Shown in pieces: positions 1,566 through 60,396 of a DNA stretch of 60,999 bases. The stretch's first letter is position 1. Each line of letters begins with the position of its first letter. Below the pieces are notes generated by a model. It did not search any database and was not told where the DNA came from. It saw only the letters and a program-made list of their open reading frames with translations. Origin of the DNA: a virus; the IMG/VR virus record IMGVR_UViG_3300044568_003707, positions 1 through 60,999 of that record. The stretch is one strand, 5' to 3'. Made by a program: the position numbers and the translations under genes.

Positions 1566-1594
1566 TTGACTTGTTGCTATTTTTTGTTCATAGT
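1566..1594 (+). promoter_or_regulatory. sigma70-like promoter for RNA ligase
   Basis: TTGACT at 1566-1571, 17 bp spacer, CATAGT at 1589-1594. The ATG chosen for the ligase is 10 bases past the -10 element, so the mRNA would be essentially leaderless. Confidence 0.7.
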
Positions 1595-1603
1595 ATGGTC
1601 ATT

Positions 1604-2629
1604 ATGAGTGAACGTAAATTAGCTTCTATACAGAAAATAACGGAAATCCTACCAATTGACGGTGCGGATAAGATTGTGTGTGTAAAAATTCTGGGGTGGC
1701 AATGCGTGGCACTAAAGACTGAATTTAAAGTCAATGACGCTTGTGTTTTTTTTGAAATAGATAGTGTTCTTCCTATCGCACAATGGAATGATCATCTAAG
1801 AAAAGAGCCAAATAAGCCATTGCGTATAAAAACAATACGACTTCGTGGACAATTGAGCCAAGGATTGGCTATGCCAATGTCTATTATTCCAACTGGAGAA
1901 TATGAAGTGGGTCAAGATGTCACTGAACTTGTTGGTGTTACTAAATACGAACCTGTTGTGCCTGCACATCTATCTGGTATGGCCAAAGGAAACTTTCCAG
2001 CATTTTTACATAAAACTGATGAAACTCGTTTACAATCGGAACCAAGAGTGCTTGATGAAGCCATATCCAAAGGTCTTGTGCTCGTTGGCACACTCAAAAT
2101 GGACGGTACAAGTTTTACTGCATATCGAAGAGACGATGAGTTTGGCGTGTGTTCTCGCAACCTTGATTTAAAGGAAACGGAAGATAATGCTCATTGGAGA
2201 ATGGCTCGCAAGTTGAAACTTGAAGAAATTCTTCGCAGCGAACCTAGCAATCTTTCTATTCAAGGTGAAATTGTAGGTCCGTCTATTCAAGCAAATCGTC
2301 TTGGTTTATCGGAATCTAAGTTGTATTTATTCAATCTATTTGATATAGACACAGGGAAATATCTTAGTCACACCGAACTTTCTGCGTTTGCAGAAAAGCA
2401 TGGATTGAAAGTGGTTCCAACTGTGTATCGTCTTGATTTTGGCGGTGTTGTTGGTCCAAGAGATGTCAATCATTTGCTCAATATTGCCAACAATCTGAAC
2501 TATGACAACGGTACACCAGCCGAAGGCATTGTTTGGCGTTCTATGTGTGAAACTCACAGCGATGTTCTCAAAGGTAGATTATCGTTCAAGACAATATCAA
2601 ATAGATATTTGGAAAAATATAAAGAATGA
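1604..2629 (+). CDS. RNA ligase, Rnl5 / DRB0094 family
   Basis: ATP-dependent RNA ligase, 341 aa, expected to seal 3'-OH/5'-phosphate nicks in RNA. The nucleotidyltransferase motif I KMDG has its adenylated Lys at about residue 165. Motif IV is EGIVWRS and the C-terminal motif V region is SFKTISNRYL. The N-terminal module (SERKLASIQKI, GADKI, LGWQCV, FEIDSVLP) is typical of the Deinococcus DRB0094-type family. I prefer the ATG at 1604 to the upstream TTG at 1571 because it follows the promoter -10 directly. With the tRNA array, tmRNA and other RNA-repair genes it suggests repair of cleaved RNA. Confident on family, less so on the substrate. Confidence 0.88.
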   Translation: MSERKLASIQKITEILPIDGADKIVCVKILGWQCVALKTEFKVNDACVFFEIDSVLPIAQWNDHLRKEPNKPLRIKTIRLRGQLSQGLAMPMSIIPTGEYEVGQDVTELVGVTKYEPVVPAHLSGMAKGNFPAFLHKTDETRLQSEPRVLDEAISKGLVLVGTLKMDGTSFTAYRRDDEFGVCSRNLDLKETEDNAHWRMARKLKLEEILRSEPSNLSIQGEIVGPSIQANRLGLSESKLYLFNLFDIDTGKYLSHTELSAFAEKHGLKVVPTVYRLDFGGVVGPRDVNHLLNIANNLNYDNGTPAEGIVWRSMCETHSDVLKGRLSFKTISNRYLEKYKE

Positions 2630-4832: not shown

Positions 4833-6011
4833 ATGAACAAAATTGTTACATTGTTTTTGATGTTCTTTCTGTGGAACAATGTTTATGGTGCTGTGGGTAA
4901 ATTGACAGAGGTGACTGGCCCTACACAAGTTAGTAGGGCCAGTACCAAATTGGATGGTAAGGTTGATGTGGGTATAGAAATAGATGATACCATCGAAACT
5001 TTAAAATCGCGTGTTGGTATAACATTTGAAGATGGTACCAGAGTACAATGCACCGAGTTTAGCAAACTTGTTATAGATACGTTTGTGTATGATCCAAGTA
5101 GTGGAAAAGGAAAGCTTGCAATGAAGGCAACAATGGGAACGGTGAGATATGCTTCTGGATTGATTGCCAAAAATAATAAAGAAGAAGTAAAAGTAAAAAC
5201 TCCCACGGCATCTATATCAGTACGTGGCACAGATTTTTCAATGACAGTTGATGAATTGGGCAGAAGTTTGGTTATTCTTTTACCATCCCAGCCACAATTT
5301 GGACCTTCCGTTGTTGGTCAGATAACAGTGAGTAATGGACTTGGAACAGTTGTATTGACCAAAGCATATCAGGCTACATTTATAGCATCAAGTTCTGTTG
5401 TACCATCTTCTCCAGTGATTTTGAATTTTGACGACGAAAGTAAAGTGAACAATATGTTGTTGATTGATACACCAAAAAATGTCACACAAGCTGCAAAAGA
5501 AGCAAAGAAAGCATCTGTTGGTTCAGAAAAAGAAGATGATGGTGGAGACAAAAACAAAAAGATGGAAAAGAAAGAAACAAAGTCCGAGAGCAAATCCGCT
5601 GGTACATCAGTTGCTCAAGTTGACGGAGGTTCGACTGAGGCTCCAATCGAGGAGACCCACTCAACTGTCAATGTGGTCCAAGAAAATATTACTATAAAGC
5701 TTGATATAAACGCTATAAGTCCAAGCACCAATGTTGCTGTCATGGATGCAATTGCGGCAAAACAATCTATACAATCCGTACAACCGACATCAATAGCACC
5801 AATTATATCCACGCCAACTTCTACAGTAAATAATGGCTTTACAACGAACGGAACGCATGCTATATTGTATATAACCAATGGAAATAATGTGGTGTGGTAT
5901 ACTCTAAAGGCTGATGCCAATGCTATATTCAATATAACTCAAAATACTGAATCAAAGGAATATCCATTGAACTTCGGTTCTAAACTTAAAGTTAATATAA
6001 TTCAAAAATGA
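4833..6011 (+). CDS. FecR-domain periplasmic protein
   Basis: 392 aa, signal peptide of about 19 residues. Residues 20-160 form a FecR-like domain: GKLTEVTG at its start, FEDGTRVQC, a KATMGTVRYASG strand, and TPTASISVRGTDF. Around residues 220-260 comes a Lys/Glu/Ser-rich charged linker, followed by a Thr/Ser-rich stretch and a C-terminal beta segment (NNVVWYTLKADANAIF). FecR domains sense or relay periplasmic signals. It lies 2 bp after the curlin gene and overlaps the cyclase by 4 bp. FecR-domain genes are known next to CHASE2-cyclase genes in bacteria, so a sensor partnership is a fair inference. Confidence 0.82.
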   Translation: MNKIVTLFLMFFLWNNVYGAVGKLTEVTGPTQVSRASTKLDGKVDVGIEIDDTIETLKSRVGITFEDGTRVQCTEFSKLVIDTFVYDPSSGKGKLAMKATMGTVRYASGLIAKNNKEEVKVKTPTASISVRGTDFSMTVDELGRSLVILLPSQPQFGPSVVGQITVSNGLGTVVLTKAYQATFIASSSVVPSSPVILNFDDESKVNNMLLIDTPKNVTQAAKEAKKASVGSEKEDDGGDKNKKMEKKETKSESKSAGTSVAQVDGGSTEAPIEETHSTVNVVQENITIKLDINAISPSTNVAVMDAIAAKQSIQSVQPTSIAPIISTPTSTVNNGFTTNGTHAILYITNGNNVVWYTLKADANAIFNITQNTESKEYPLNFGSKLKVNIIQK

Positions 6012-8068
6012 AATCTCATATTCTTAAACTATTTGGCGTCGGTTTGCTGATATTAACTGCACTTGTTGTGCTACGCATACAAGATTCATATCCAATAGAA
6101 GTAATGAGGCTCAAGGGATTGGACTATTATCAACGCACACAAGACAAAGTAAAAAGTGAAAATATCATCATTGTTGAAATTGATGAAAAAAGTTTAGAAG
6201 AAAAAGGACAATGGCCGTGGCCAAGAAATGAATTGGCAGATGGTATCAAGAAAGCATTTGAAAATGAAGCAGCTACTGTAGTATTGCCAATTATATTTGC
6301 GGAAAAAGATAGAATGGGTGGAGACGCAGCATTTGTGGAAATATTGGGAAAAGCACCCGTAATCACAGCACAATCTGCGGCAGTAAAGGGCAAAGGCGTA
6401 CCAGTATCAAGAGGTATGGCAACGATTGGCGGCAGTGCAGATGGATGGTTGTATGATTATCCCAACGCAATTGGACCGATAAAAGAAATAGGTGAATCGT
6501 CTGCTGGTGTGGGAATGTTATTGACGGCACCTGAACTTGATGGTGTGGTACGTCGCTTGCCGTTGGTTGTGCAAGTAAAAAAAGAAACATATCCAACTTT
6601 ACCTTTGGAAGTGTTGAGAGTGTTTGGAAATGAACCGAGCTATCAAGCAAAAATCAATGAAGCCGGAGTGCAAGCCATAAGAGTAAAAGGCTCTGCTCCA
6701 ATAAATACAGATGCTAGTGGTAGAGTATGGATAAACTTCAAATACAAGTTTGATAATATTTCATATACAGATAAAGATTGGAGCAAAGTCAAAGGTAAGA
6801 TTGTGGTTATAGCATTGACTGCTGAAGGATTAACAAACACGGTGGCAACTCCTGTAGGAACAGCATATGGACACGAAGTTAGTATGCAGACGCTACAAAT
6901 GTTGGTTGATGGAAACAGATTGGAACGCAAAGCGGAGTTTGATTTATATGAGTTGGCAGTTGGAACATTGCTTGGATTGATTCTTGTAACATCCGCTGCA
7001 TATCTTGGCTATGTTTATAATGGAATATTGATAAAAGTATCTGTGTCTATGTGTGTATTTATTGGATTTTATTTGTTCAACAAGCATGGTTATTTGATTG
7101 ATTATACTTGGCCGATTATGGCAGCATTTTTGCCGTGGGTTGGATCAATATTTATGAGATTTGTAATGGAGTTCAAATTGAAGATGCAAATCAAGAAGCA
7201 GTTTGGTACATATTTGTCGCCAGCACTGGTTGAAAAACTACAAAAAAATCCGGGCTTGCTCAAACTTGGTGGCGATGAAAGAGAATTGAGCATCATGTTC
7301 ACAGACGTTCGTGGATTTACATCTATTTCAGAACATTATGGTAAAAATGTACAAGGTCTGACAATGATAATGAACAGATATATGACTGCTATGACAGAAG
7401 CCATTCTAAAAAATGATGGTACTCTAGATAAATATATAGGGGATGCTCAGATGGCATTCTGGAATGCTCCATTGGATGATCCAAATCACGCCAAGAATGC
7501 CGTAAAAACGGCACTGCAAATGCTAAAGAGATTGGATACATTCAATGAAGAAATATCTAAGGAAGGAGTTCCGGCTTTTGGAATGGGATTGGGAATCAAC
7601 ACTGGGGGCGTCGTCGTTGGCAACATGGGTTCTACTCAGCGTTTCGACTATACTTGTCTTGGCGACCATGTAAATCTTGCTTCTAGATTAGAAGGTCAAA
7701 GCAAACCATATGGTGTACGTATTGTTATTGGTACAAGAACATTTGAGCACATCAGAAATGATTATCAATGTTTTGAACTTGATTGTATCGCCGTCAAAGG
7801 TAAAAAAGATGGTACGAGAATTTATACCGTTCTTGAAAAAAACTTGAGTGAAAGCCAGTATAACATAGTTGTATCTGGTCATTTTGCTTTTCTAAATGAT
7901 TACAGAATGCAAAGATGGGATAGTGCAATATCTCATGCCAATGAACTCATGACGCAGAATAAAGAAATGAAGAAGTATTATGAAATGATGATTGAAAGAA
8001 TGTTGGAACTTCGTACCAGCAATATTGACAAACATTGGGACGGTATTTTTAGAGCAACCTCCAAGTAA
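6008..8068 (+). CDS. CHASE2-domain membrane adenylate cyclase
   Basis: 686 aa. An N-terminal membrane anchor (residues 7-24) precedes a periplasmic CHASE2 sensor (about 30-300, with VEIDEKSLEEKGQWPWPR). Several hydrophobic helices follow at about 310-390, then a class III cyclase domain (about 425-600). Catalytic features are visible: the metal Asp in FTDVRGF (D433), the second Asp in KYIGDAQ, the Lys before YIGD expected for ATP use, and transition-state Asn/Arg in GDHVNLASR. It appears catalytically complete and should make cAMP in response to an envelope signal. It ends the overlapping csgF-csgG-curlin-FecR chain. A possible effector lies at 23265. Confidence 0.9.
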   Translation: MKSHILKLFGVGLLILTALVVLRIQDSYPIEVMRLKGLDYYQRTQDKVKSENIIIVEIDEKSLEEKGQWPWPRNELADGIKKAFENEAATVVLPIIFAEKDRMGGDAAFVEILGKAPVITAQSAAVKGKGVPVSRGMATIGGSADGWLYDYPNAIGPIKEIGESSAGVGMLLTAPELDGVVRRLPLVVQVKKETYPTLPLEVLRVFGNEPSYQAKINEAGVQAIRVKGSAPINTDASGRVWINFKYKFDNISYTDKDWSKVKGKIVVIALTAEGLTNTVATPVGTAYGHEVSMQTLQMLVDGNRLERKAEFDLYELAVGTLLGLILVTSAAYLGYVYNGILIKVSVSMCVFIGFYLFNKHGYLIDYTWPIMAAFLPWVGSIFMRFVMEFKLKMQIKKQFGTYLSPALVEKLQKNPGLLKLGGDERELSIMFTDVRGFTSISEHYGKNVQGLTMIMNRYMTAMTEAILKNDGTLDKYIGDAQMAFWNAPLDDPNHAKNAVKTALQMLKRLDTFNEEISKEGVPAFGMGLGINTGGVVVGNMGSTQRFDYTCLGDHVNLASRLEGQSKPYGVRIVIGTRTFEHIRNDYQCFELDCIAVKGKKDGTRIYTVLEKNLSESQYNIVVSGHFAFLNDYRMQRWDSAISHANELMTQNKEMKKYYEMMIERMLELRTSNIDKHWDGIFRATSK

Positions 8069-11414: not shown

Positions 11415-11492
11415 GGCCATGTGACGCAACTGGATAGTCGTGTTACGCTTAGAACGTAAATGTTGGGGGTTCGAGTCCCTCCATGGCTACCA
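11415..11492 (+). tRNA. tRNA-Leu(UAG), short variable loop
   Basis: Acceptor GGCCATG/CATGGCT, anticodon stem TTACG/CGTAA, loop CTTAGAA, T-arm GGGGG/CCCTC, A73, CCA. The variable loop is about 5 nt although bacterial Leu tRNAs carry a long arm. A normal class II Leu(UAG) lies at 23982. Confidence 0.8.
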
Positions 11493-11587: not shown

Positions 11588-11665
11588 GGGCGTGTGACGT
11601 AACTGGATAACCGTGTTTCATTCAAAATGAAAATTTTGTGGGTTCGAGTCCCACTATGCCCACCA
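11588..11665 (+). tRNA. tRNA-Leu(CAA), short variable loop
   Basis: Acceptor GGGCGTG/TATGCCC (G-T pairs), anticodon stem TTTCA/TGAAA, loop TTCAAAA, T-arm GTGGG/CCCAC, A73, CCA. Like 11415 it has a class I variable loop and the same D-arm with one extra base. Confidence 0.8.
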
Positions 11666-19554: not shown

Positions 19555-21528
19555 ATGAAATATAATAACACACAAAATAACTCGCTGCTTGTGAAGCTCT
19601 TTGCTTCTATGATGCTGTTTGTGGTCGCTGTGACCAGTGTATTTGCCATTCCGGGCATTACATCCACAAACCTACAAACAACGGCGGGTGTAACAGTTAC
19701 AGGTGCAGGTACTACTCTTAGTATCGTCGCCCCAAACAAGTCTGTGCTTACATGGCAGAACTTTGGAAGTGGCACGGATACTATTGCTATTGGAGATGCA
19801 CTAAACTATACACTTCCTTCCAATAATGCATCCGTACTAAACATTGTTGCTGGTGGAGCATCTTCAACCATCAACGGTACACTTTCCTCTAACGGTAATG
19901 TATATGTTCTGAATCCAAATGGCATTTTGATTGGTGGCAGTGCCCGAATTGATGTCAACCGTTTGGGCTTGAGCACATCCGACAATCCATCATTTGCTAG
20001 TTTTTATTTCCAGCAAAATGGATTTCTTCCGTCCCAAGACGGACTGGTTCCTGTTGCTGGTAATACAACCATCAACAATGGTGCAATCATCTCAGTAAGC
20101 GAAAACATTACTCTTGTTTCCAAGAACGTCACAATCAATGGTGTATTGTCTCAAGGAAATCTTGTGCTCAATGCTGATGGTAATGTTACTGTGGGTTCTG
20201 CTGGTATGGCTTATATCGCTGGCAATTTGACTATCAATAATCCAACTGGAACAACTACAATTGGTTCTGCTGGCAACAACACAATTATCACCAATAACCT
20301 AGTGGTCAATGGAAATTCTACAAGTGCGTTTTCTTCGGTTGCTACTGGCACAATACAAGCCAAGACGCTGAACGTCACGGCTGGAACAATTCTAGCCGAT
20401 CGTATCAGCACAAGCAACACAACCGTAACTGGCACAAACGTCACTGTTAATGTTGGTTCTGGTGCTGGTACGCCTTCTGTTACCGCAGTTGGTAATGGCA
20501 CAGTACAAATATCCGCTCCCGCATCTCTTGCCGTAAATGTCACCAATTCTGGTGTTGGTGCAACTAGCGTATCTGCTGGTGGCAATTTGATATTGGGCAA
20601 GGTGCAAGTTGAAGGTTTGGCTGGTGCTTCTTTTACTGGTGCCGCCGTGACTGACACTTCGTCCAGAATATTTGTTTATGGTGGTGCTGCGTTCACTGCA
20701 ACTGCTGGGAATGTCAATATCGACAAAGGACAACACAGTTTTGGTCCAGTTAGCGTATCCGCTACTGGCGAAGCCTTGATCTTTGAAGACGCTGCCACAC
20801 AGCTGAACGTTGTCAACACTCCAAAGCTAACATTGCGTTCCGCTGATTATGTTTTTCAAACTCCGACAACTGGTGTAGTTAATAGTGCATTGGTGTCTGT
20901 TGTGGGTGCTGGAAATATAACACTTGGTGCAGCCACAAACTCCGTTGGAAATTACACAATCACCGGAAACGATGTTGTGGTTGCCAACAACGGCGCATTG
21001 TCTATCTCCACGACTGCAACTGGTAACGCCTCCGTTACATCAACGGGTGCAGTAAATCTCGGTGGAACAACCGCAGGTGGCACACTAACAGTTACTTCTG
21101 CTGGAGCAATCACTCAAGCAGTTGATACCAAAGTCAGTTCGTTTGGATCTGTTCGTTTTGTTGGAACTGGATTGACACTATCAAATGCTGGCAACGGCTT
21201 TGGTGGCATCACAGTTGATGTTGGTACTGCCGGTACTGCCACACTCACAGAAGAAACAACTCTAAACCTCGTTTCTCTTCGCGCTGCTAATGCAACGGTG
21301 AAAAGTACATTTGATGTTATCACTACTGGTACATTGCCAGTAGTCGCTGATACATTCAATGTTGTTGTTGGTGGGGATTTTGTTCCTGCTGCAAACTTCC
21401 GCGCTGTCAATGGTATTACAGTATTGTCTGGTGGAAATGTTGACTTGAGCAATTTGAGTTTGATCACAAACTTGAATAACAAGAGCCCAAGCATCATTGC
21501 CAAGGGATACAAGGCTCCACAGCCATAA
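19555..21528 (+). CDS. filamentous haemagglutinin-like (TpsA) secreted protein
   Basis: 657 aa. A long signal peptide (about residues 1-36, ending VFA) is followed by a TPS-type N-terminal domain. Key strings are SVLTWQNFGSG, STINGTLSSNGNVYVLNPNG and ILIGGSARIDVNRLGLSTS. The rest is repetitive beta-strand sequence rich in Gly, Thr, Val and Asn (NLTINNPTGTTTIGSAGN and similar), typical of FHA beta-helices. Such proteins are normally exported by a TpsB pore, and none is seen here. No Cys. Followed by a terminator. Probably a surface or exported adhesin encoded by the phage. Confidence 0.82.
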   Translation: MKYNNTQNNSLLVKLFASMMLFVVAVTSVFAIPGITSTNLQTTAGVTVTGAGTTLSIVAPNKSVLTWQNFGSGTDTIAIGDALNYTLPSNNASVLNIVAGGASSTINGTLSSNGNVYVLNPNGILIGGSARIDVNRLGLSTSDNPSFASFYFQQNGFLPSQDGLVPVAGNTTINNGAIISVSENITLVSKNVTINGVLSQGNLVLNADGNVTVGSAGMAYIAGNLTINNPTGTTTIGSAGNNTIITNNLVVNGNSTSAFSSVATGTIQAKTLNVTAGTILADRISTSNTTVTGTNVTVNVGSGAGTPSVTAVGNGTVQISAPASLAVNVTNSGVGATSVSAGGNLILGKVQVEGLAGASFTGAAVTDTSSRIFVYGGAAFTATAGNVNIDKGQHSFGPVSVSATGEALIFEDAATQLNVVNTPKLTLRSADYVFQTPTTGVVNSALVSVVGAGNITLGAATNSVGNYTITGNDVVVANNGALSISTTATGNASVTSTGAVNLGGTTAGGTLTVTSAGAITQAVDTKVSSFGSVRFVGTGLTLSNAGNGFGGITVDVGTAGTATLTEETTLNLVSLRAANATVKSTFDVITTGTLPVVADTFNVVVGGDFVPAANFRAVNGITVLSGGNVDLSNLSLITNLNNKSPSIIAKGYKAPQP

Positions 21529-22677: not shown

Positions 22678-22842
22678 ATGAGTGAACTAGATCTACTAAG
22701 AATTCTTCCAAAAGAACAATTTACAGAATATAAAGGAAAATGTATACAGGTTCGTGATCTAATAAAGATACTTGAAAAACAGAATGAAAAAAATACTAAT
22801 AATGGGATTACCCGGCGCAGGAAAAACAACACTGGCAACTGA
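22678..22842 (+). CDS. small charged protein upstream of the P-loop kinase
   Basis: 54 aa, MSELDLLRILPKEQFTEYKG, with a Lys/Asn/Arg-rich tail. It overlaps the kinase gene by 59 bp in another frame. The start was chosen because it follows the promoter. The protein-like N-terminus suggests a real gene; the tail may simply be the price of the overlap. Function unknown. Confidence 0.5.
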   Translation: MSELDLLRILPKEQFTEYKGKCIQVRDLIKILEKQNEKNTNNGITRRRKNNTGN

Positions 22843-23209
22843 GTTAGCAAGTACATTAAATGCAGTTCATTTTAACGCTGACGAAATTCGTAAAGAAATC
22901 AATAAAGATTTGACGTTTAGTATACAAGATAGAATAGAACAAGCACGTCGTATGAAAGTGTTGTGTGATATTGTTGTTAGGTCTGGAAATTATGCTATAG
23001 CAGATTTTGTATGTCCAACAAAACAAGCACAAGATGTATTTATAACAGAAGATACATATGTTGTTTGGGTTGATAGAACAAAGGTTGGTAGATATGAAGA
23101 CACCAACAAACTGTTTCATCCTCCAGAGAATTTTGATATGATAGTCAATGAATATGGATCTCCAAAATTTTGGTCGCTATTGATTGCTGACGAACTGCAA
23201 GCACACTAA
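22784..23209 (+). CDS. P-loop kinase (adenylylsulfate kinase-like fold)
   Basis: 141 aa. Walker A GLPGAGKTTLA sits at the N-terminus. HFNADEIRKEIN provides the Asp/Arg typical of adenylylsulfate-kinase and polynucleotide-kinase-like P-loop enzymes; VVWVDRT lies downstream. Small kinases of this type phosphorylate nucleotides or RNA/DNA 5' ends. A 5'-OH RNA kinase role would suit the RNA-repair genes nearby, but the substrate cannot be read. The ATG at 22784 is preferred to the TTG at 22772. Confidence 0.75.
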   Translation: MKKILIMGLPGAGKTTLATELASTLNAVHFNADEIRKEINKDLTFSIQDRIEQARRMKVLCDIVVRSGNYAIADFVCPTKQAQDVFITEDTYVVWVDRTKVGRYEDTNKLFHPPENFDMIVNEYGSPKFWSLLIADELQAH

Positions 23210-23981: not shown

Positions 23982-24065
23982 GGTCGGGTGATGGAATGGC
24001 AGACATGAAAGTCTTAGAAGCTTTTGCCGCAAGGCGTATGGGTTCAAGTCCCTTCTCGACCACCA
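23982..24065 (+). tRNA. tRNA-Leu(UAG), class II
   Basis: Acceptor GGTCGGG/CTCGACC, anticodon stem AAAGT/GCTTT, loop CTTAGAA, variable arm GCC-GCAA-GGC, A73, CCA. Confidence 0.92.
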
Positions 24066-24252: not shown

Positions 24253-24294
24253 ACTGCGGTGCCATAACTTGGGATGACCAACCCAACGCGCAGT
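24253..24294 (+). ncRNA. 42-nt hairpin element
   Basis: ACTGCG/CGCAGT outer stem and TTGGG/CCCAA inner stem. Confidence 0.4.
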
Positions 24295-24306
24295 CAGAAA
24301 AAAAAT

Positions 24307-24382
24307 AAGTGCTGACATTGGGGATGACTCACCTGCTGATGAACCAATGGCGCGGAGACGCAGGTCACTACCGCCAGCACTT
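24307..24382 (+). ncRNA. stem-closed RNA with H-type pseudoknot
   Basis: Outer stem AAGTGCTG (24307-24314) / CAGCACTT (24375-24382). Inside, CATTGG (24316-24321) pairs CCAATG (24344-24349). ACCTGC (24331-24336) pairs GCAGGT (24360-24365), which crosses the first helix. All three helices are perfect. Confidence 0.6.
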
Positions 24383-24390
24383 CACTTTAT

Positions 24391-24509
24391 GGCAGAGTGG
24401 CGCAATTGGCTGACGCGGTTGACTCTTTCCAGTTATTGTGAATAACGATGACTGGCAAAAATCAACTGTCTTAACGACACTGTGGGTTCGAACCCCACCT
24501 CTGCTACCA
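24391..24509 (+). tRNA. class II tRNA (Leu-like) with insertion in the anticodon loop
   Basis: Acceptor GGCAGAG/CTCTGCT, T-arm GTGGG/CCCAC with loop TTCGAAC, variable arm TGTC/GACA, A73 and CCA are all normal. The anticodon stem GTTGA/TCAAC encloses 38 nt instead of 7: an inserted CCAGT/ACTGG plus GTTATT/AATAAC hairpin. A73 and the variable arm suggest Leu, perhaps CAA or CUU-like after removal. 119 nt in total. Confidence 0.75.
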
Positions 24510-24512
24510 AAA

Positions 24513-25199
24513 ATGAATTACACCAATGAACAAATTTTTCTATATGGTTCTACAATTGGAACAAGTACTCTGAGAAAGAGAATTATACAGCATAAACTCA
24601 AAGAATATCAATGTGAGATATGTAAGATAGATGATTGGAACAACAATTCAATCAGTTTACAACTTGACCACAAAGATGGTGATAGAAAAAACAACATATT
24701 AGATAATCTTAGATGGCTCTGTCCAAATTGCCATTCCCAAACTCCAACATTTTGTTCAAAAAATATTAAAGTTAAACGTTTCTCGGATGAACAAATATTG
24801 GAAGAGTGTAAGAAACAAAAAAATATTAGGGGTGTTGTATTGGCGATTGGGTGTAATGTTCGTTTGTATGGTAGAATAAAAAGAATTGCGGATGAAAATG
24901 GAATAGCATTTGAACAACCATATGGTACAGGTAGAATTTCCAGAGAGAGAAAAGTTCCAATTGGATTTGATGCAAAAAACAAATCTAAAGAATGGAAAGC
25001 AAAGATTGGATATTCTAATAGAAGAACAACTTGGCCAACAAAAGAAGTATTGACAAATCTCGTTGATTCTGTTCCAATTGAAACCATCGGAAATCAATAT
25101 GGAGTATCTGGAAATGCTGTTAAAAAGTGGTGTAATTTCTACGAAATAGAAACCAAACCGTCTGGATACTGGCAGAAGAAAAAATTTGGAAAAATTTAA
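24513..25199 (+). CDS. HNH homing endonuclease with C-terminal HTH repeats
   Basis: 228 aa. The HNH core CEICKIDDWNNN, LDHKDGDRKNNILDNLR, CPNCHSQT is close to that of the 10407 gene. Two helix-turn-helix-like segments follow: FSDEQILEECKKQKNIRGV and IETIGNQYGVSGNAVKKW. The ATG at 24513 is 3 bp after the tRNA CCA; longer frames would run into the tRNA. It probably homes into or beside tRNA genes. Confidence 0.88.
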   Translation: MNYTNEQIFLYGSTIGTSTLRKRIIQHKLKEYQCEICKIDDWNNNSISLQLDHKDGDRKNNILDNLRWLCPNCHSQTPTFCSKNIKVKRFSDEQILEECKKQKNIRGVVLAIGCNVRLYGRIKRIADENGIAFEQPYGTGRISRERKVPIGFDAKNKSKEWKAKIGYSNRRTTWPTKEVLTNLVDSVPIETIGNQYGVSGNAVKKWCNFYEIETKPSGYWQKKKFGKI

Positions 25200-25212
25200 T
25201 TATAATAATTCA

Positions 25213-25389
25213 ATGAAAACTAAACTACCAAAACAAATCATTCGTATTGATGACGGTGAAGTATTTTCATTGAATGAAAATGGAACATATTCGCTTGAAA
25301 TGATGAAACAAAAATTCCCCAATCATTTGTACAATGAATACACATATGAAGTTTTGATGGAAAATTTCAAAGGATGCTTTAGACACTAA
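25213..25389 (+). CDS. hypothetical small protein
   Basis: 58 aa (MKTKLPKQIIRIDDGEVFSL, ending FKGCFRH). Soluble, mixed alpha/beta appearance. It sits in a run of very small genes between tRNAs, each preceded by a TTTTATG or AATATG-type start without a clear Shine-Dalgarno. Function unknown. Confidence 0.55.
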   Translation: MKTKLPKQIIRIDDGEVFSLNENGTYSLEMMKQKFPNHLYNEYTYEVLMENFKGCFRH

Positions 25390-25396
25390 TAATTTT

Positions 25397-25580: not shown

Positions 25581-25666
25581 GGGCATATGGCGTAATGGTA
25601 GCCGCAGCAGACTTAAAATCTGTTTCTCGTAAGAGAGTATCGGTTCGAGTCCGATTATGCCCACCA
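25581..25666 (+). tRNA. tRNA-Leu(UAA)
   Basis: Acceptor GGGCATA/TATGCCC, anticodon stem GCAGA/TCTGT, loop CTTAAAA, class II variable arm (CTC/GAG), A73, CCA. Confidence 0.95.
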
Positions 25667-26046: not shown

Positions 26047-26491
26047 AGAGATTTATATTGAAAGCGGCAATCATTGGATAAATGCTCCATATCCATTGAA
26101 GCCAAATGATACTGAAGTAAAAATGTATCAACAACATCTATTGACCGGCACTACATTGTTACTAGGTTCTACAGTTCCTTTATTACCTTTGTGTGATGAA
26201 GCAATTGACTTGACTCCAAGAATACAAGATCCAAAAATAATCAAGGGAGATTGGAATAACATAGAAAAATTTTATGATAATATTATTGGCGACGGAGTTC
26301 TAAATTTAGAAGGAGAAAAGATGATTGAAAATCTTCGTCCCAAGTGTCATAGATTTATAAGCAGAGTATTTTCCAGAAAATTCTCATATATGAAATACGC
26401 TACATTTTTTTATAAAGATTTTCATAACGCAACAAAAATAGCAGAAATAAATGAATCATGTCCGATTTTCATCTGGAAGTTTACAAACTAG
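26039..26491 (+). CDS. methyltransferase-like protein
   Basis: 150 aa. A Rossmann-type stretch is visible: LLTGTTLLLGSTVPLLPLCD (glycine loop), AIDLTPRI, IIKGDWNN and FYDNIIGDGVLNL. This matches the order of SAM-binding motifs I, II and IV in small methyltransferases, though shorter than usual. The ATG overlaps the previous gene by 8 bp and the next start lies inside its end. The pairing with an AMP-ligase-like gene suggests they act on the same small molecule. Substrate unknown. Confidence 0.5.
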   Translation: MTKEIYIESGNHWINAPYPLKPNDTEVKMYQQHLLTGTTLLLGSTVPLLPLCDEAIDLTPRIQDPKIIKGDWNNIEKFYDNIIGDGVLNLEGEKMIENLRPKCHRFISRVFSRKFSYMKYATFFYKDFHNATKIAEINESCPIFIWKFTN

Positions 26492-27477
26492 TCAAGGCGT
26501 TGGAAGAAAACCAATATACACAACGCGATGTATCATTATTGATACCAAATCTTGATATATTGACAAGAGCGGAGTTGCAGAAAATACCTATAGACAAATC
26601 CAAACCATTTTCATCCACCAGTGGAGCAACTGGTCAACCAGTATTTGTTCAAAAGTATATGGCTCAAAATATTTGGTATTGGGCAACCAATATGCGTGAA
26701 CTAATTTGGAGAAAATGGGATACATCATTGAATTTGGCGGTAATCAACGCACCAGTTTCAGAAGAAAAAATAATACCTTGGCCGACAAATCCGTATTTAT
26801 TTACAAAAGGAGTTGGTAAGTGTTATATGCATCCAACACGAGGAGATTTGCAAGGTTGGCTATATAGAATTCAGCCAGATTATTTACACACATATCCATC
26901 TATCATCGCCACACTTGATACATCTAAACTAAAAGATGTAAAATCAACAAGTGAAAGAGGCGGAACCAATTATAGTTCAGAAGAAGTTGGTACAATTGGA
27001 TTAGAATGCCCAGACAATCCAGATGTATATCATATCATGGAGAACATTGTTATAGAAATCGTAGATGACAATGACATCCTCGTTACAGACCTCACACATC
27101 CATATATCAAGCGATACAAAATTGGAGATAAAGGAGAGTTTGATACTTGCAGCTGTGGAAGAAAATTACAAACCATCAATCGTAATGTTCTTGGTAGAAT
27201 TCGTAATATGATAAAGTATCAGGATGGCACAACTGCGTGGCCATTGTTTGGTAGCAATACCATAAGAAATGCATGTGATACAATAAAAAGATTTCAATGT
27301 GTGCAAGAGTCATACTCAGACATCACGCTGAAGATTCAAGGAACTATACCAGAAGATAAAATTGAAGATGTAAAGAAATTGGTATTGAAAAGACTCAATC
27401 ATCCATTCAATTTAAAGATAGAGTTTGTAGAATCTTTTCCAGAAGGAAAATTTGAAGAGTTTGTTTGTAAGATATAA
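26458..27477 (+). CDS. PaaK/CapK-like adenylate-forming enzyme
   Basis: 339 aa. The ATP-binding loop SSTSGATGQPV matches the phenylacetate-CoA ligase (PaaK) and CapK families. The later blocks YSSEEVGTIGLECPDNPDVYH, TDLTHPYIKRYKIGDKGEF, CSCGRKLQTI and GRIRNMI (quoted separately) follow the same family order; the CSCGR pair suggests a metal site. These enzymes adenylate carboxylates, sometimes for CoA thioesters or capsule assembly. It overlaps the methyltransferase-like gene by 34 bp. The natural substrate is unknown; a phage copy is unusual. Confidence 0.75.
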   Translation: MSDFHLEVYKLVKALEENQYTQRDVSLLIPNLDILTRAELQKIPIDKSKPFSSTSGATGQPVFVQKYMAQNIWYWATNMRELIWRKWDTSLNLAVINAPVSEEKIIPWPTNPYLFTKGVGKCYMHPTRGDLQGWLYRIQPDYLHTYPSIIATLDTSKLKDVKSTSERGGTNYSSEEVGTIGLECPDNPDVYHIMENIVIEIVDDNDILVTDLTHPYIKRYKIGDKGEFDTCSCGRKLQTINRNVLGRIRNMIKYQDGTTAWPLFGSNTIRNACDTIKRFQCVQESYSDITLKIQGTIPEDKIEDVKKLVLKRLNHPFNLKIEFVESFPEGKFEEFVCKI

Positions 27478-29101: not shown

Positions 29102-29815
29102 TTACATTAGATGCGGCAGATATGCTCTGCGAAGAACATCATTTGCATATTTATGATCAAACTCATAATTGAATTTACGATCTTCATATGCTTTCTTCAA
29201 TTCTATTTCATAATTGTCGGCAAGAAAGTTTAGCTGTTCCACTGTGTATGTTTCTGGTTGAGTTTTTACCAGCATTAGAAAAGCATGAACATTTGTGTCA
29301 TATTGCTTCATATTGACAGGAAAATAACCTTTTTCAAACAATGCTTTGCCGCAATTGGCCAATCTGAACAATTGCGTAAAATTTTTTGGACTAAAACCAT
29401 ACTTATCGAGGTGAGCCTTGCGTTTACTGCCAAGCTGACCTGTGCGTTCACCGTTGGCAAGACGCCGTTCACCCTGCATATAACCAAGCAAGCATCTAAA
29501 CATCTTGTCTGTGTCAACAAACTTTAACTTGTTTGTTTGTATTTCTTCAAATACATCACTTGTTTCAAGTAAGTTGTCAGAGAAAAGTATTTCAAGCGCA
29601 CCTGTGTTGCCATTGCGAAGAAGTTCAAAAAACTTACGAACTTCATAATAAACTATGTCGTCGGTTTCTTGCTTTTGAACATGATCCATACGCTCCAATC
29701 CAAGTATTTTGGATGGATCTGTATTTATGAATACACCTCTGTAATCAAGGTCGGACTCGGGAGTGTTGAGTCCATACGCTGTGCTGCCTCCCAAAGCTTT
29801 TACTAGCATTTTCAT
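29102..29815 (-). CDS. RlaP-like nucleotidyltransferase (RNA-repair associated)
   Basis: 237 aa. The DNA polymerase beta-superfamily signature GGSTAYGLNTPESDLDYRGV has the GGS loop and the DxD metal pair. VYYEVRKFFELLRNGNTGAL and LANGERTGQLGSKRK follow, as in the YcgL/RlaP family, which is known from RNA-repair operons. It would add or transfer nucleotides. Three in-frame ATGs lie at 29821, 29815 and 29809. The promoter TSS falls near 29816, favouring 29815. It belongs to a set of minus-strand RNA-processing genes here. Confidence 0.8.
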   Translation of the reverse strand: MKMLVKALGGSTAYGLNTPESDLDYRGVFINTDPSKILGLERMDHVQKQETDDIVYYEVRKFFELLRNGNTGALEILFSDNLLETSDVFEEIQTNKLKFVDTDKMFRCLLGYMQGERRLANGERTGQLGSKRKAHLDKYGFSPKNFTQLFRLANCGKALFEKGYFPVNMKQYDTNVHAFLMLVKTQPETYTVEQLNFLADNYEIELKKAYEDRKFNYEFDHKYANDVLRRAYLPHLM

Positions 29816-29822
29816 GATCATA

Positions 29823-31665: not shown

Positions 31666-32316
31666 TTATGTATCTTTGCCGTGATGATCTGGCGCAATTG
31701 TGCTGCGCGGACTCAATTCGCGCACAATTTCATTCCATTCAACTGGACGACGTTTCCACTCCCAACCAACATCCAATCTTTGTAGGGTTGTATCTTCTTT
31801 TAGATTGCGGTGACAATGACCGTGAATATGATACGCGCCTTTGCTGATATGATTCCATGAAGCAATTGGATAATGAGTCAACACAACTACTCTGCCATCA
31901 ATTGTAATTTCTGCATAATGACCAAGAAATGTGAATGGACTGTTTGGATAATTCAATGGATACATTTCTATATCATCTGCCAACAATCCAATGTCTTTGC
32001 GGCAGTCATCATATAATTGATGAATACCAGCATTATGATTGCCCCAAATAAAATATTGATGCTTGCAAGGCAGATGCACAATGCGTTTAGCATATTCCAT
32101 AGAATTTGGTCCAGCACCAATCACGGCATCGCCAAGATTGAACACAATATCATTTGGTCCAATATGCTCATTCAACATTTGATGTGTATGAGAATATGCT
32201 TCACTAACATTTGTATATTTACGAGGACCGAGAATAAATGGTTTGTCATGACCCAAATGCAGATCACTCACAAACCAAATCTTTTGGTCAATTGATTTTA
32301 AACTAATTTTCTTCAT
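31666..32316 (-). CDS. calcineurin-like metallophosphoesterase
   Basis: 216 aa. Metal-site motifs in order: FVSDLHLGHD (DxH), NLGDAVIG (GD), IWGNHNAG (GNH), LTHYPIASW and HIHGHCHRN (GHxH). This is a complete metallophosphoesterase set. Enzymes of this type remove phosphates or open cyclic phosphates on nucleotides or RNA. Its start overlaps the cREC stop by 4 bp, so the two are translationally coupled, suggesting joint RNA-end processing. Confidence 0.88.
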   Translation of the reverse strand: MKKISLKSIDQKIWFVSDLHLGHDKPFILGPRKYTNVSEAYSHTHQMLNEHIGPNDIVFNLGDAVIGAGPNSMEYAKRIVHLPCKHQYFIWGNHNAGIHQLYDDCRKDIGLLADDIEMYPLNYPNSPFTFLGHYAEITIDGRVVVLTHYPIASWNHISKGAYHIHGHCHRNLKEDTTLQRLDVGWEWKRRPVEWNEIVRELSPRSTIAPDHHGKDT

Positions 32317-32675
32317 TTTCTGCTTTTCTTGTATGATTCAATATAACTACGAATGTTCTCTCTGCCAATAGGATTCATACTGTGAACTTGATAATCGGGA
32401 AATTCAAGATTATTGTTCATACAATATTCTACCAACCATTTGGCACAATCATACCCCGTTTTTTCTTTATATTCGTTATATTTTGGAGCACCAACAATAT
32501 AATGTTCAATTCCCAAATCATGGTCAAAACTCACAAACGACGGCAACCCATTTTGCATGATATATTTTACAAAATCATCATAATTTCTTGCTATAATCCA
32601 AGGACCAAGTGGCATTTCTACCCAATTAACATTTTTTGGCAGACGTTCATCATCAATAAATAATTTATACATCAT
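32313..32675 (-). CDS. cyclic-phosphate-processing receiver-domain (cREC-like) protein
   Basis: 120 aa. FIDDERLPKN at the start, IARNYDDFVKYI, PSFVSFDHDLG in the middle, then GYDCAKWLVEYC and VHSMNPIGRENI. This pattern fits the receiver-like family predicted to process cyclic phosphate ends of RNA. The Asp residues of a receiver fold are present. There are two possible ATGs, 32675 and 32672; the second matches the TSS. Coupled to the phosphoesterase downstream. Family call is good, the reaction is predicted rather than proven. Confidence 0.75.
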   Translation of the reverse strand: MMYKLFIDDERLPKNVNWVEMPLGPWIIARNYDDFVKYIMQNGLPSFVSFDHDLGIEHYIVGAPKYNEYKEKTGYDCAKWLVEYCMNNNLEFPDYQVHSMNPIGRENIRSYIESYKKSRK

Positions 32676-33941: not shown

Positions 33942-34333
33942 GGGCTCGTTTTTAGATTCTACTCTATGAAATGAGTACAAGCCGCAAGCACAGAGTCTAA
34001 TGTCTCTGTATAATACCCGTTGGAAAACATAAATGCTAAGAGAAATCTTGCAAAGGTGTCTTTTCTTTCTGTTCGCAAGAACAGCGGAGCCGAGACACTT
34101 GTCGCAGCCTAATAAAATAGGCTGTCCGTTGTCCTTGTGACACAGATAACAAGTCAACAACGTTCATCATCTGGCCGTTTGTGCGAGATAGAAGATGGTA
34201 GCACAAATCAAATACTAAACTTCAACTTCAATGTGGTGCTCTACCAAACATTGATGTATTATAAGAGATAAGCTTGTATATGTTTGTAAGCTTTTTATAT
34301 AGCACCCGGATGCAACTTCCGGCGAGTCCACCA
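33942..34333 (+). ncRNA. ssrA: tmRNA (one-piece), phage-encoded
   Basis: The 5' end GGGCTCG pairs with CGAGTCC at the 3' end (34323-34329), followed by A73 and encoded CCA. A T-arm CCGGA/TCCGG with loop TGCAACT lies at 34306-34322. After the 5' acceptor comes TTTTTAGATTCTAC, like the conserved tmRNA D-domain. TACAAGC near the 5' side pairs with GCTTGTA near the 3' side (helix P2). A reading frame from about GCT 34035 ends ...GAETLVAA then TAA TAA (34110-34115), the typical hydrophobic VAA tag end. CTGTTC-GCAA-GAACAG and CAGCCTA/TAGGCTG helices lie inside. tmRNA rescues stalled ribosomes. Confidence 0.82.
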
Positions 34334-36770: not shown

Positions 36771-37886
36771 GTGAAAATTGACTTACAATCCATCGACAAA
36801 GAGTCGTTTATGGTTCATCAACACTTTGTTGGTGGACATGAATGTTTTTTGGTTCAGCCAATTCATATTGGTGCTACTTGGAATAAAGAGAACCTTATTT
36901 ATCGTTCTTCATTGTGGGATAAAGATGGACATCCTGTTTCACTGTCGTTCAAGAAATTTTTCAATTATGATGAAAAGCCTGATATTTTTCCAGCACCTTC
37001 TGATCTAAAAAATGCGAAGTTGATGGAAAAGTTGGACGGTTCTACTTTAATCTTTTCTCGCTATAAGGGTCATACTGTTATTCGTACACGCGGAACTGTT
37101 GATGCTCGTAAGCAAGCAAATGGGTATGAGATTGACTATTTGCTTCAAAAGTATCCAAAGTTTGCAGATATGTTGAATCAAGCCGACACATACGATCAAT
37201 CGTTTATATGTGAGTGGTTGAGTCCGACAAATAGAATTGTACTAAATTATGGCGATGAACCAGAAATGAAGTTGATTGCTGCAATCGGACACGCAGATTA
37301 TACACTTACTCCGCAGAGTGTATTGGACTTGTATGCAAAGAGTTGGGATTTACCACGTCCCCGCACATTCTCTTACAACTCTGTTGAAGAAATGAAGTCG
37401 GCGGTTGAAGTGTTGAAAGACCAAGAAGGTTTGTGTGTATATTATGGAAACGAACAACAAATTCGTAAAGTAAAAGCCGCAAGCTATCTTTTTTTACATC
37501 GTGCAAAAAGTGAAATTTCTAGCATAGAAAAAATAATTGATGTGTATATTGATTGGTTTATACCACGTAACACATTATCACACGAACCAACTGGTTATGT
37601 AGAATTCTTTGAGTATCTTACCGAAAAGTTTGACTTTGAGATTGCTACAATGGCAACTGGACACGCTTCGCGCATCTGTGATGCTATGAAAGAAGTTCAC
37701 AAGATCATGACTGCACTGTTTGAGTTTGCGTCTGAGCGTATGAACATTGCTCGTAATATTGCCGCCAAAGAAATCTTACAAGCATATGGCAGCACGGGCA
37801 GAAGTGCAATTATATTCAAGATGCTAGATCGCAAGACCATCAGCACTGATGATTATAAAAAACTGCTATATCAAGTATTGAAGTAA
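36771..37886 (+). CDS. rnlA: T4 RnlA-like RNA ligase 1
   Basis: 371 aa from a GTG start. Nucleotidyltransferase motif I KLDGS has its Lys at residue 87; IFSRYKGHTVIRTRGT is motif Ia, FICEWLSPTNRIVL motif III-like, EGLCVYY motif IV and RKVKAASYLFLHRAK motif V. The C-terminal helical region matches the Rnl1-specific domain. T4 Rnl1 reseals tRNA cut by host anticodon nuclease. With the Rnl5-type ligase at 1604 the phage has two RNA ligases. Leaderless GTG start inferred from the promoter. Confidence 0.87.
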   Translation: MKIDLQSIDKESFMVHQHFVGGHECFLVQPIHIGATWNKENLIYRSSLWDKDGHPVSLSFKKFFNYDEKPDIFPAPSDLKNAKLMEKLDGSTLIFSRYKGHTVIRTRGTVDARKQANGYEIDYLLQKYPKFADMLNQADTYDQSFICEWLSPTNRIVLNYGDEPEMKLIAAIGHADYTLTPQSVLDLYAKSWDLPRPRTFSYNSVEEMKSAVEVLKDQEGLCVYYGNEQQIRKVKAASYLFLHRAKSEISSIEKIIDVYIDWFIPRNTLSHEPTGYVEFFEYLTEKFDFEIATMATGHASRICDAMKEVHKIMTALFEFASERMNIARNIAAKEILQAYGSTGRSAIIFKMLDRKTISTDDYKKLLYQVLK

Positions 37887-57762: not shown

Positions 57763-60396
57763 ATGGCTAAATTAGAAAAAGCATTGCTTGGAAAGTTTAT
57801 ACAATATCCGGAATGGAAAACCTTGACCAAAGGACAAAAAAAGTTTTTCAAGGATTTTTTCTCCGGAAGAAATATATTCTTGACTGGTGCCGCCGGTGTT
57901 GGAAAGTCCCATGCTGTATCCGTGTTATTCAAGTTCCTTGATTTGAATGGAATTTTTTATGCAAAAACTGCAACAACTGGCGTAGCTGCACTGAATATAG
58001 GTGGAGTAACTTTGCATTCATGGTCTGGTATGGGATTGGCCGAAGAACATGGTATGGAACTGCTGGATAAAGTATCTGAAAATAACAAGGCAGTCAATCG
58101 TATCAAGCACAGTAAAGTGCTTATCATAGATGAAATATCAATGGCCAAGAGTGATTTGGTTGATAAACTGGACATTGTTTGTCAATATATCAGAAACAAA
58201 GACAAACCTTTTGGTGGTATTCAAGTGGTGTTTGTGGGTGATTTCATGCAATTACCACCCGTATTCAAGAACTTTGATGAAGAAAAGTTTGCTTTTGATT
58301 CTCAAGCATGGCGCGATGCTAAAGTAAAAACAATTCATTTGACTGAAATTGTAAGACAGCATGACGAACCTCATTTTGCCAAGTTGCTCAATGAAATACG
58401 AATGGGGAAAGCTAAAGATTATACACTACTTACAGATTGTATAAACAGAAAGTTTCCAGATGATGGCATCAAACCAGTAAAGCTGTTTTGTAAAAATATT
58501 GATGTAAGCAAATATAACCACGACGAGTTGTATAAAATAAAAAATCAAAGTAAGTTTTATCATTCATCTGATTCAGGTGGTGACACGTGGCGTCAATTTT
58601 TTGATAAGAATTGTCCTGCTCCAACTACACTAGAACTGCGTAAAGGTGCTCAAGTTATTTTGCTGGTCAATCTGGATACAAAACTTGGATTGGTCAATGG
58701 CAGTGTTGGCACAGTGACCGAGGTATATGATACATATGTTGATATAAAATTTGCTTGTGGTGCTCAAATTATTGAAACATATAAATGGGAAATAAAGCAA
58801 AACGAGTATGATGCATTGACTGGTAATATGAAAAAGGTTGTATTGGCTTCACGTTCTCAATTTCCATTGAAACTTGCATGGGCTTTGACTGTTCATAAGT
58901 GTTTAGAAGAAAACTCGGTTATACATCTAAAAAATTCATCAAAATTGATAAAAAACGTGGGCAATGACTATACTTATAGTGTGAAGAACTCACACAATAA
59001 AATAGAAAAAGTCCATAATATGAAAAACCAAGATGCTATAAAAATCACTCTCCATTCGGGTAAAGAAATAATATGCTCTCCTAATCACAAAATTGCCATA
59101 GCATATTCACTAACTCAAATTGCATTTGAAGAAGCCTTCTCTATAAAAGAGGGAGATTTTATATTATCAAAAAAAGGATTTCCCACACCCGAAAAGTCTC
59201 CCATATCAACCGAACTTTGTTGGCTTCTCGGCGCTCTTGTCGGAGATGGAAGTTACTCTCAATACAATATAGACCGTTGCGATTATAGAGTTGATTTTAC
59301 AAATATACCAACAGAATGTGGTAATATTTATAAAAAGTTGGCAGAATCATTGCTTGGAGTTAAAATATCCATCACAACGCCTAGAAATAACAAAGCAAAA
59401 ACTTATTATTTTCATAATAAGGCGGTTAGAGAATACCTGTCGTCGATTGGACTGACCCCCGCAATTCGTGCTAATAAACAAGTACCAAAAATAATTTTTG
59501 AATGTAGTAGAGAGGGTATTGCCAATTTTATTTGCGGACTTATAGATTCCGACGGGCATATAAACCGACGAAATATTGTAATCACAAATGTGGCCAAGCA
59601 AATGTTGTTGGAAGTTCAAAGTTTGTTGGAAATTTTGGGATTTAGGTCATTCTTGGCACCAGCGGGGTGCCCAAAAAAAAATCAAAACCAAGCGTTTCAG
59701 TTGCAAATATATTCTTATGAGGCGAGAAGATTTTTGCGAGAATTTTCTGGTTATTTAAAAGCGGTTGATAAATATAAACATTTACCGACGTTGATGAAAT
59801 ATCCATACAAGAAAATAAAAGTACAAATAAACGACTTGCCATTGACCGAAGACGAAATTGAGTGCTTGCGGTTGGAATTGAGGCCAAAGTTTGGAAAGCC
59901 GCATGGAAAATCGTATCGCTTACATTTGCCGAGTGGGTTGAGCGATTTCTTAACCACAAATAGAAACGGACTAGACCGTTTTGTTTTGGAGCGAATGACG
60001 AGAGAAATTCCGAACTTTTCGGAACTCGGACCTACCACGAAGATAATAGATTCAGCCGTTACTGCCAATTTATTCGTGGACACTGTAGTATCGGTTGAGC
60101 CTGTATTTGATAAGACGCTGGTGGACGTTACGCTTGACAGAGAACATACATATTTTGCCAATGGAGTATTTCATCACAATTGCCAAGGCAGTACACTTGA
60201 TAGAGCAGAAATTGATATAAGTGAAGCATTTGCGGATGGGCAATGTTACGTGGCATTGAGCAGAGTGCGTAGTTTATCTTCACTTAGTATAAAGTCTTTT
60301 TCTCCACACAAAATCAAAACAAATAAAAAGTGTTTAGATTTTTATAACTCGCAAATTGATGAAAAAGAGATAGAGTTCTTTGTTGACGAGGACTGA
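57763..60396 (+). CDS. Pif1/Dda-like superfamily 1 helicase with intein
   Basis: 877 aa precursor. Walker A TGAAGVGKS (about 41-49), ATTGVAALNIGGVTLHSWSG (motif Ia), VLIIDEISM (Walker B), VVFVGDFMQLPPV (motif III) and LTEIVRQ (motif IV). Motif V-VI is interrupted by an intein: it breaks at HK and resumes CQGSTLDRAEID...YVALSRV. After splicing the enzyme would be about 450 aa, close to T4 Dda and small Pif1-like helicases. It unwinds DNA 5'-3' in replication and recombination. The gene has a leaderless-type promoter. Confidence 0.92.
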   Translation: MAKLEKALLGKFIQYPEWKTLTKGQKKFFKDFFSGRNIFLTGAAGVGKSHAVSVLFKFLDLNGIFYAKTATTGVAALNIGGVTLHSWSGMGLAEEHGMELLDKVSENNKAVNRIKHSKVLIIDEISMAKSDLVDKLDIVCQYIRNKDKPFGGIQVVFVGDFMQLPPVFKNFDEEKFAFDSQAWRDAKVKTIHLTEIVRQHDEPHFAKLLNEIRMGKAKDYTLLTDCINRKFPDDGIKPVKLFCKNIDVSKYNHDELYKIKNQSKFYHSSDSGGDTWRQFFDKNCPAPTTLELRKGAQVILLVNLDTKLGLVNGSVGTVTEVYDTYVDIKFACGAQIIETYKWEIKQNEYDALTGNMKKVVLASRSQFPLKLAWALTVHKCLEENSVIHLKNSSKLIKNVGNDYTYSVKNSHNKIEKVHNMKNQDAIKITLHSGKEIICSPNHKIAIAYSLTQIAFEEAFSIKEGDFILSKKGFPTPEKSPISTELCWLLGALVGDGSYSQYNIDRCDYRVDFTNIPTECGNIYKKLAESLLGVKISITTPRNNKAKTYYFHNKAVREYLSSIGLTPAIRANKQVPKIIFECSREGIANFICGLIDSDGHINRRNIVITNVAKQMLLEVQSLLEILGFRSFLAPAGCPKKNQNQAFQLQIYSYEARRFLREFSGYLKAVDKYKHLPTLMKYPYKKIKVQINDLPLTEDEIECLRLELRPKFGKPHGKSYRLHLPSGLSDFLTTNRNGLDRFVLERMTREIPNFSELGPTTKIIDSAVTANLFVDTVVSVEPVFDKTLVDVTLDREHTYFANGVFHHNCQGSTLDRAEIDISEAFADGQCYVALSRVRSLSSLSIKSFSPHKIKTNKKCLDFYNSQIDEKEIEFFVDED
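58900..60180 (+). mobile_element. intein with LAGLIDADG endonuclease
   Basis: Residues 380-806 of the helicase (427 aa). Starts with Cys1 (CLEENSVIHLKN) and ends FHHN with Asn, followed by Cys+1 (CQGSTLD), the standard splicing residues. Block B is CSPNHKIAIA. LLGALVGDGSY and FICGLIDSDGHI are the two LAGLIDADG motifs; YFANGVFHHN is block F/G. It sits in a conserved helicase motif, a typical intein site. Confidence 0.92.

Follow-up and report, generated by a model that had tools for sequence, protein, structure and literature searches.

Small introns in the tRNA genes of Lak megaphages have been reported as enigmatic (Devoto et al. 2019, PMC6784885; PMC8346664), a published precedent (PMC6784885) that the initial annotation of the DNA studied here did not mention. 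The three Lak inserts dissected in this work (L170:14838-15024(-), L205:2564-2723, and L171:5504-5668(-)) measure 87–114 nt and lie at 35/36 or 36/37, namely 114 nt at 36/37 in tRNA-Thr(UGU), whose exons are 100% identical in the uninterrupted gene of Lak-C1, 87 nt in tRNA-Gly(UCC), and 93 nt at 35/36 in tRNA-Asn(GUU). As read by eye from these three sequences, they form a family with an (A/T)TACA start, a small hairpin, a AAATTAAACT core, a nested tRNA-like domain, and a terminal C, and their 3' boundary, directly after a discriminator-like C, coincides with the expected cleavage site of RNase Z. Archaeal and eukaryotic introns of the EndA/bulge–helix–bulge type (PMC4090602) are also short inserts in the anticodon loop of otherwise normal tRNAs, with a canonical position at 37/38. 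Phage tRNAs with anticodon loops altered to resist nucleases have been proposed as well (PMC10264068), and jumbo phages use a set of RNA-repair enzymes like the one encoded here against tRNA cleavage (PMC7824862).

The window analysed, a stretch of 60,999 nt of viral DNA (IMG/VR record IMGVR_UViG_3300044568_003707), contains a complete class II tRNA gene at 24391–24509, running from G1 through an encoded CCA on inspection of the sequence, and these are exactly the coordinates at which the initial annotation had recognized a class II tRNA that is normal outside its anticodon loop. This locus is confirmed as a real tRNA gene split by a hairpin in that loop. Rfam RF00005 matches positions 24391–24506 with 37.8 bits (gathering score 29) and places the surplus sequence in the anticodon loop, while the RNA folds with an MFE of -43.7 kcal/mol (z = -4.4 versus 200 shuffles). 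ARAGORN does not detect the gene without an intron model; with introns allowed, it places a 32-nt insert behind position 35 and labels the gene Phe(AAA). The loop closed by the anticodon stem (GUUGA/UCAAC) measures 39 nt, instead of the 38 nt first counted, and the hairpin-bearing insertion, estimated at about 31 nt, comprises 32 nt. Outside the insert, all stems are paired and the conserved positions, A73, and CCA are intact; damage beyond the insert, as in a pseudogene, was not found in this tRNA, a state that is still compatible with a recent event.

The identity of the gene is established by its surroundings in 11 loci fetched by means of a shared downstream protein (26458–27477 in the window). 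The DNA upstream of the tRNA is 99–100% identical in L122, L123, and L124 and 85–92% identical in more distant members, and an uninterrupted tRNA-Leu(CAA) with the loop CUCAAAA or CUCAAAC stands directly at the same spot in L122, L123, L124, and L130, with another uninterrupted Leu(CAA) in the neighbourhood in L140, L142, and L129. In an alignment with the uninterrupted syntenic genes, the insert begins directly after C34 and ends directly before A35. Its removal restores the loop CUCAAAA with no exon base duplicated or lost (CUC^32 nt^AAAA), ARAGORN then calls the sequence Leu(CAA), and the predicted spliced junction reads ...GUUGACUC|AAAAUCAAC... versus ...GUUGACUCUUUCCAG... in the unspliced form. 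On the basis of sequence and synteny (class II body, A73, CCA, and CAA after excision), the gene is therefore taken to be a tRNA-Leu(CAA), and synteny, the class II body, and A73 rule out the label Phe(AAA). Alternative excisions that leave a 7-nt loop would yield CUA (amber), CUU (Lys), or AAA, and the locus fits only CAA. The body of this Leu(CAA) differs from that of the uninterrupted genes at the same locus in relatives; near-identical exon pairs with and without an insert are limited to the Gln case described below and Lak Thr. The features of the window on which the analysis relies are collected in Table 1.

Table 1. Features of the interrupted tRNA locus and of the related genes in the window.
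Feature	Positions	Strand	Evidence
tRNA-Leu(CAA), 5' half, positions 1–34 (acceptor strand, D arm, GUUGA 5' anticodon stem 24418–24422, C32 U33 C34)	24391..24425	+	Rfam RF00005, fold, alignment with uninterrupted Leu(CAA) genes
32-nt insert between C34 and A35	24426..24457	+	MAFFT alignment with relatives; fold z = -6.3
tRNA-Leu(CAA), 3' half (A35 A36 A37 A38, UCAAC 3' anticodon stem 24462–24466, variable arm, T arm, A73, CCA)	24458..24509	+	Rfam RF00005, sequence
HNH endonuclease-like gene	24513..25199	+	Weak Pfam HNH_3; ATG one codon past the tRNA
tRNA-Leu(UAG), upstream syntenic neighbour	23982..24065	+	ARAGORN
tRNA-Leu(UAA), syntenic neighbour	25581..25666	+	ARAGORN, Rfam 59.8 bits
Second uninterrupted tRNA with anticodon CAA, without long variable arm	11588..11665	+	ARAGORN, Rfam 53.5 bits
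RNA ligase, DRB0094 type	1571..2629	+	Pfam PF09414 2.7e-27, PF21189
T4 Rnl1-like RNA ligase	36771..37886	+	Pfam PF09511 5.6e-12
RlaP RNA-repair nucleotidyltransferase	29102..29821	-	Pfam PF10127 2.3e-16
cREC cyclic-phosphate-processing domain protein	32313..32675	-	Pfam PF20274 2.4e-23
P-loop kinase (APS-kinase/AAA_33 type)	22772..23209	+	Pfam PF01583 7.9e-14, PF13671

The insert itself (UUU-CCAGUUAUUGU-GAAUA-ACGAUGACUGG-CA) forms a hairpin of 11 bp with arms at 24429–24439 and 24445–24455. Folded alone, it reaches -14.3 kcal/mol, and since its z-score is -6.3 and 0/200 shuffles fold equally well, the hairpin is not a product of chance. Both the MFE and the centroid structures have a 6x6 internal loop where the anticodon stem meets the hairpin of the insert. 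The same allele is present in a second IMG/VR record (3300042291_001403), with one mismatch to the window over ~25 kb, and thus the insertion, reproducible as an identical allele, is not an artefact of a single assembly. Pattern scans of IMG/VR for a Leu(CAA) with the insert returned, among the matches listed, only this second record of the same strain, and a pattern search of IMG/VR found no other copies of the insert hairpin; in a genome collection, the sole match to the hairpin pattern lies in a Macrococcoides genome, outside any tRNA. Moreover, no sequence or motif common to the window insert and the other phage inserts was found. The insert thus appears to be a feature of a single strain, which weakens any claim of function and leaves no conservation or covariation to be read for it. 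Two G-U pairs in its stem were considered as a sign of selection at the RNA level and dropped, as the changes are too few.

The window insert shares several features with the Lak introns: it interrupts a phage tRNA within the anticodon loop and its removal leaves a normal 7-nt loop, it is identical in independent assemblies, and it belongs to a huge phage rich in tRNAs and RNA ligases. Its presence also seems to vary among close relatives, whose tRNA body differs from that of the window gene. However, it consists of a 32-nt hairpin alone, located at 34/35, without the (A/T)TACA start, core, and nested tRNA-like domain of the Lak inserts. Excision by RNase P and RNase Z, attractive for the Lak family, was rejected here, given that the window insert carries no such nested domain. 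In cyanobacterial tRNA-Leu(UAA), the group I intron is inserted at 34/35, so that tRNA-Leu and the site after wobble position 34 are common to both, but the window insert has neither a catalytic core nor an Rfam match. The likeness to archaeal and eukaryotic protein-spliced introns suggested in the initial annotation is not supported beyond size: the insert is not at 37/38, and the fold of 24391–24509 contains no bulge–helix–bulge (two 3-nt bulges, 4-bp helix) but the 6x6 internal loop instead. The EndA tRNA-splicing endonuclease domain (PF01974) occurs in 0/10 related or huge-phage records, with four archaea as positive controls and the window's own genome known only as a 61-kb fragment. As for the tRNAs of PMC10264068, an altered anticodon loop and a phage with tRNA-repair genes are shared with the window; they carry point changes and still decode, whereas the present insert abolishes decoding unless removed, and neither "insertion" nor "intron" occurs in the text of that paper. 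The insert is filed as one that would work like the Lak tRNA introns, and as neither an archaeal-type nor a group I intron.

Comparable inserts occur in other phage tRNAs. In the same phage group, a tRNA-Gln(UUG) carries a 47-nt insert in its anticodon loop (L132/L137/L138/L158/L175), while the uninterrupted Gln(UUG) of L147 matches it with 100% identity 5' of the insert and 95% identity 3' of it, and an intact second Gln(UUG) copy exists in the same genome as the interrupted one. The sister insert (L132, L137, L158, L175) thus has in common with that of the window the anticodon loop, a redundant isoacceptor, and an uninterrupted allele in a relative. It may also occupy the 34/35 position (CUU^UGAC), although 35/36 fits as well. 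Unlike the window insert, it contains a T-arm-like hairpin (GAAGGUUCGAUUCCUUC) and as a whole has a weak fold signal (z = -1.4), and there is no sequence similarity between the two. Phage LR756501 carries related 45- and 68-nt inserts in tRNA-Arg(UCU) and tRNA-Met (L216:13096-13214(-) and L215:4819-4958(-)), both between positions 29 and 30 as the stems are read by eye, with the common sequence CGTAATTTG...AAATTAC..ACAGCAANACAAA. In LR756502, the D loop of a tRNA-Glu(UUC) (L179:13040-13156) holds a 43-nt insert with two hairpins, an uninterrupted relative being located 1 kb away, and a Met/Thr insert case is ambiguous. Among the inserts paired with an uncut copy by a split search blind to position within the tRNA, three of four are in the anticodon loop (Gln, Lak Thr, and Lak Gly) and one is in the D loop. 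A strict preference for 34/35 across phages was rejected on account of the Lak sites at 35/36 and 36/37, the 29/30 site of LR756501, and the D-loop case of LR756502. In addition, two diverged phages encode a tRNA-like RNA that lacks CCA and whose anticodon arm is long and irregular (L158:2374-2478 and L174:1725-1829(-)), between which an A-U pair of the arm becomes C-G (TCAC/GTGA to TCCC/GGGA).

The explanation that we tentatively prefer, with a probability somewhat short of even, is that the gene gives rise to a tRNA-Leu(CAA) precursor with an intron, from which the insert would be removed by cutting and sealing. The transcript would fold as a normal cloverleaf with the hairpin stacked beyond the open 6x6 internal loop, a putative nuclease of phage or host origin would cut both strands of this loop, and phage repair proteins would heal the cut ends. 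One of the phage ligases (ATP-dependent) would then seal C34 to A35, and the sealed product would be a tRNA reading UUG, which is used more often than any other Leu codon in the sampled genes (228/565 Leu codons in 16 larger ORFs). The ligases and end-healing enzymes announced in the initial annotation are indeed present by Pfam, and the P-loop kinase is possibly the 5' end-healing kinase, a role assigned by inference; RtcB was detected only in LR756501 among the records searched. A phage-encoded tmRNA (33942–34333; 68 bits with Rfam RF00023) is also found in the window, together with cargo unusual for a phage, assigned by eye (4833–8068, 19555–21528, and 57763–60396), that includes putative proteins resembling FecR, adenylate cyclase, and haemagglutinin, as well as a helicase with an apparent intein.

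The cut-and-seal intron is favoured by the clean insertion at 34/35, the intact exons, the stability of the hairpin, the repair genes, and the presence of inserts in related and other huge phages. Against it stand the missing nuclease candidate in the ten records searched for PF01974 and the absent bulge–helix–bulge, the occurrence in one strain only with an insert sequence shared with no other phage insert, and the fact that the ligases are found too in relatives without inserts. Moreover, a second Leu(CAA) and the Leu(UAA) render the spliced product dispensable. Among the alternatives, the cut-and-seal intron comes first, followed closely by inactivation of a spare gene, with a non-decoding function third.

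According to the second explanation, which we consider plausible at about one chance in three, a recent insertion inactivated a spare Leu(CAA) in a recombination-prone tRNA/HNH cassette, and the gene no longer decodes and is being lost. The redundancy of this Leu(CAA), a circumstance absent from the initial annotation, makes plain inactivation a serious rival. The CAA tRNA at 11588 is intact, as is the Leu(UAA) at 25581, whose anticodon can pair with UUG as well through wobble. In the sister clade (L125/L132, L158, and L175), the class II Leu(CAA) survives as a remnant, at this very locus in contigs L125/L132, while the sister-clade genome (L158, L175) keeps the 11588-type CAA tRNA with its short variable arm. 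Furthermore, among the records read across their whole tRNA cluster, damage to or absence of the class II gene is confined to those that have the other CAA tRNA, and the interrupted Gln(UUG) is likewise backed by its intact second copy. The tRNAs at 11415–11492 (UAG) and 11588–11665 (CAA) bear Leu anticodons, but lack the long variable arm that a tRNA-Leu should have.

The cassette is apparent from the breaks in homology, which ends at 24393 and resumes at 25213 versus L123 (L159), and ends at 24395 and resumes at 25392 versus L147. Hence, the tRNA and the HNH gene are read as one unit of ~820 bp that replaces the usual tRNA, and this joint replacement, together with the restriction of the insert to one strain, speaks for inactivation. 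A longer relative of the HNH protein (296 aa, 59% identity) is encoded beside an uninterrupted Leu(CAA) in L142/L143, and in comparison with L142 the window protein lacks ~60 N-terminal residues, the truncation falling exactly at the 3' end of the tRNA. Just upstream of the tRNA (24255–24385) are two conserved structured non-coding elements, with a core (TTGGGGATGACTCACCTGCTGATGAACC...GAGACGCAGG) nearly invariant in eight relatives and outer stems that change together, for which Rfam gives no match at E < 1. A random insert, however, would not be expected to form a hairpin of this stability, nor to be placed exactly in the anticodon loop with every other position undamaged, and the fixed-position insert families of other huge phages are unlike random damage.

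A less probable explanation, to which we give a low chance, is a deliberately non-decoding tRNA-like RNA, acting as a decoy or titrator of anticodon nucleases or as a chargeable Leu-tRNA that the ribosome cannot use. E. coli LeuRS does not read the anticodon, and the exons retain A73 and the long variable arm, both features of tRNA-Leu. GlnRS does read the anticodon, and charging independent of the anticodon cannot explain the Gln case. The stable hairpin, the exposure to anticodon nucleases that the repair set implies (PMC7824862), and the nuclease-resistant phage anticodon loops already proposed (PMC10264068) would agree with such an RNA; nevertheless, a lure for these nucleases should retain the anticodon loop, which is here destroyed, the changes in PMC10264068 are point changes in decoding tRNAs and not inserts, and the insert is not conserved.

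That the insert is what remains of a larger, self-splicing intron of group I is very improbable. The site after position 34 is the classic one in tRNA-Leu and an HNH gene adjoins the tRNA, but a group I core cannot fit in 32 nt and no Rfam intron match appears in the region even at E < 1. The HNH relative beside an uninterrupted Leu(CAA) indicates that this gene goes with the locus and not with the insert, which rules it out as the homing endonuclease of an intron. Finally, although palindromes can be mis-assembled, the identical allele in the second record leaves an assembly or sequencing artefact hardly any probability.

The nature of phage tRNA inserts as introns has been in question since the enigmatic introns of Lak were reported in 2019, and the window adds a very small and cleanly placed case with uninterrupted syntenic counterparts, beside the Gln case with its near-identical exons. 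A more general proposal, which we regard as unlikely on present grounds, is that huge phages possess their own route for splicing tRNAs, one that depends neither on self-splicing RNA nor on an archaeal EndA, in which a nuclease would excise several unrelated families of inserts (the bare hairpin, the T-arm-bearing insert, the nested tRNA-like elements, and the 29/30 elements) and the ATP-dependent RNA-repair set would seal the halves. If the insert is spliced, phages would have a way of removing tRNA introns by cutting and sealing that belongs to neither the group I nor the EndA type, and RNA-repair genes, commonly interpreted as counter-defence, would gain a constructive role. Otherwise, the locus illustrates the loss of redundant tRNAs in phages.
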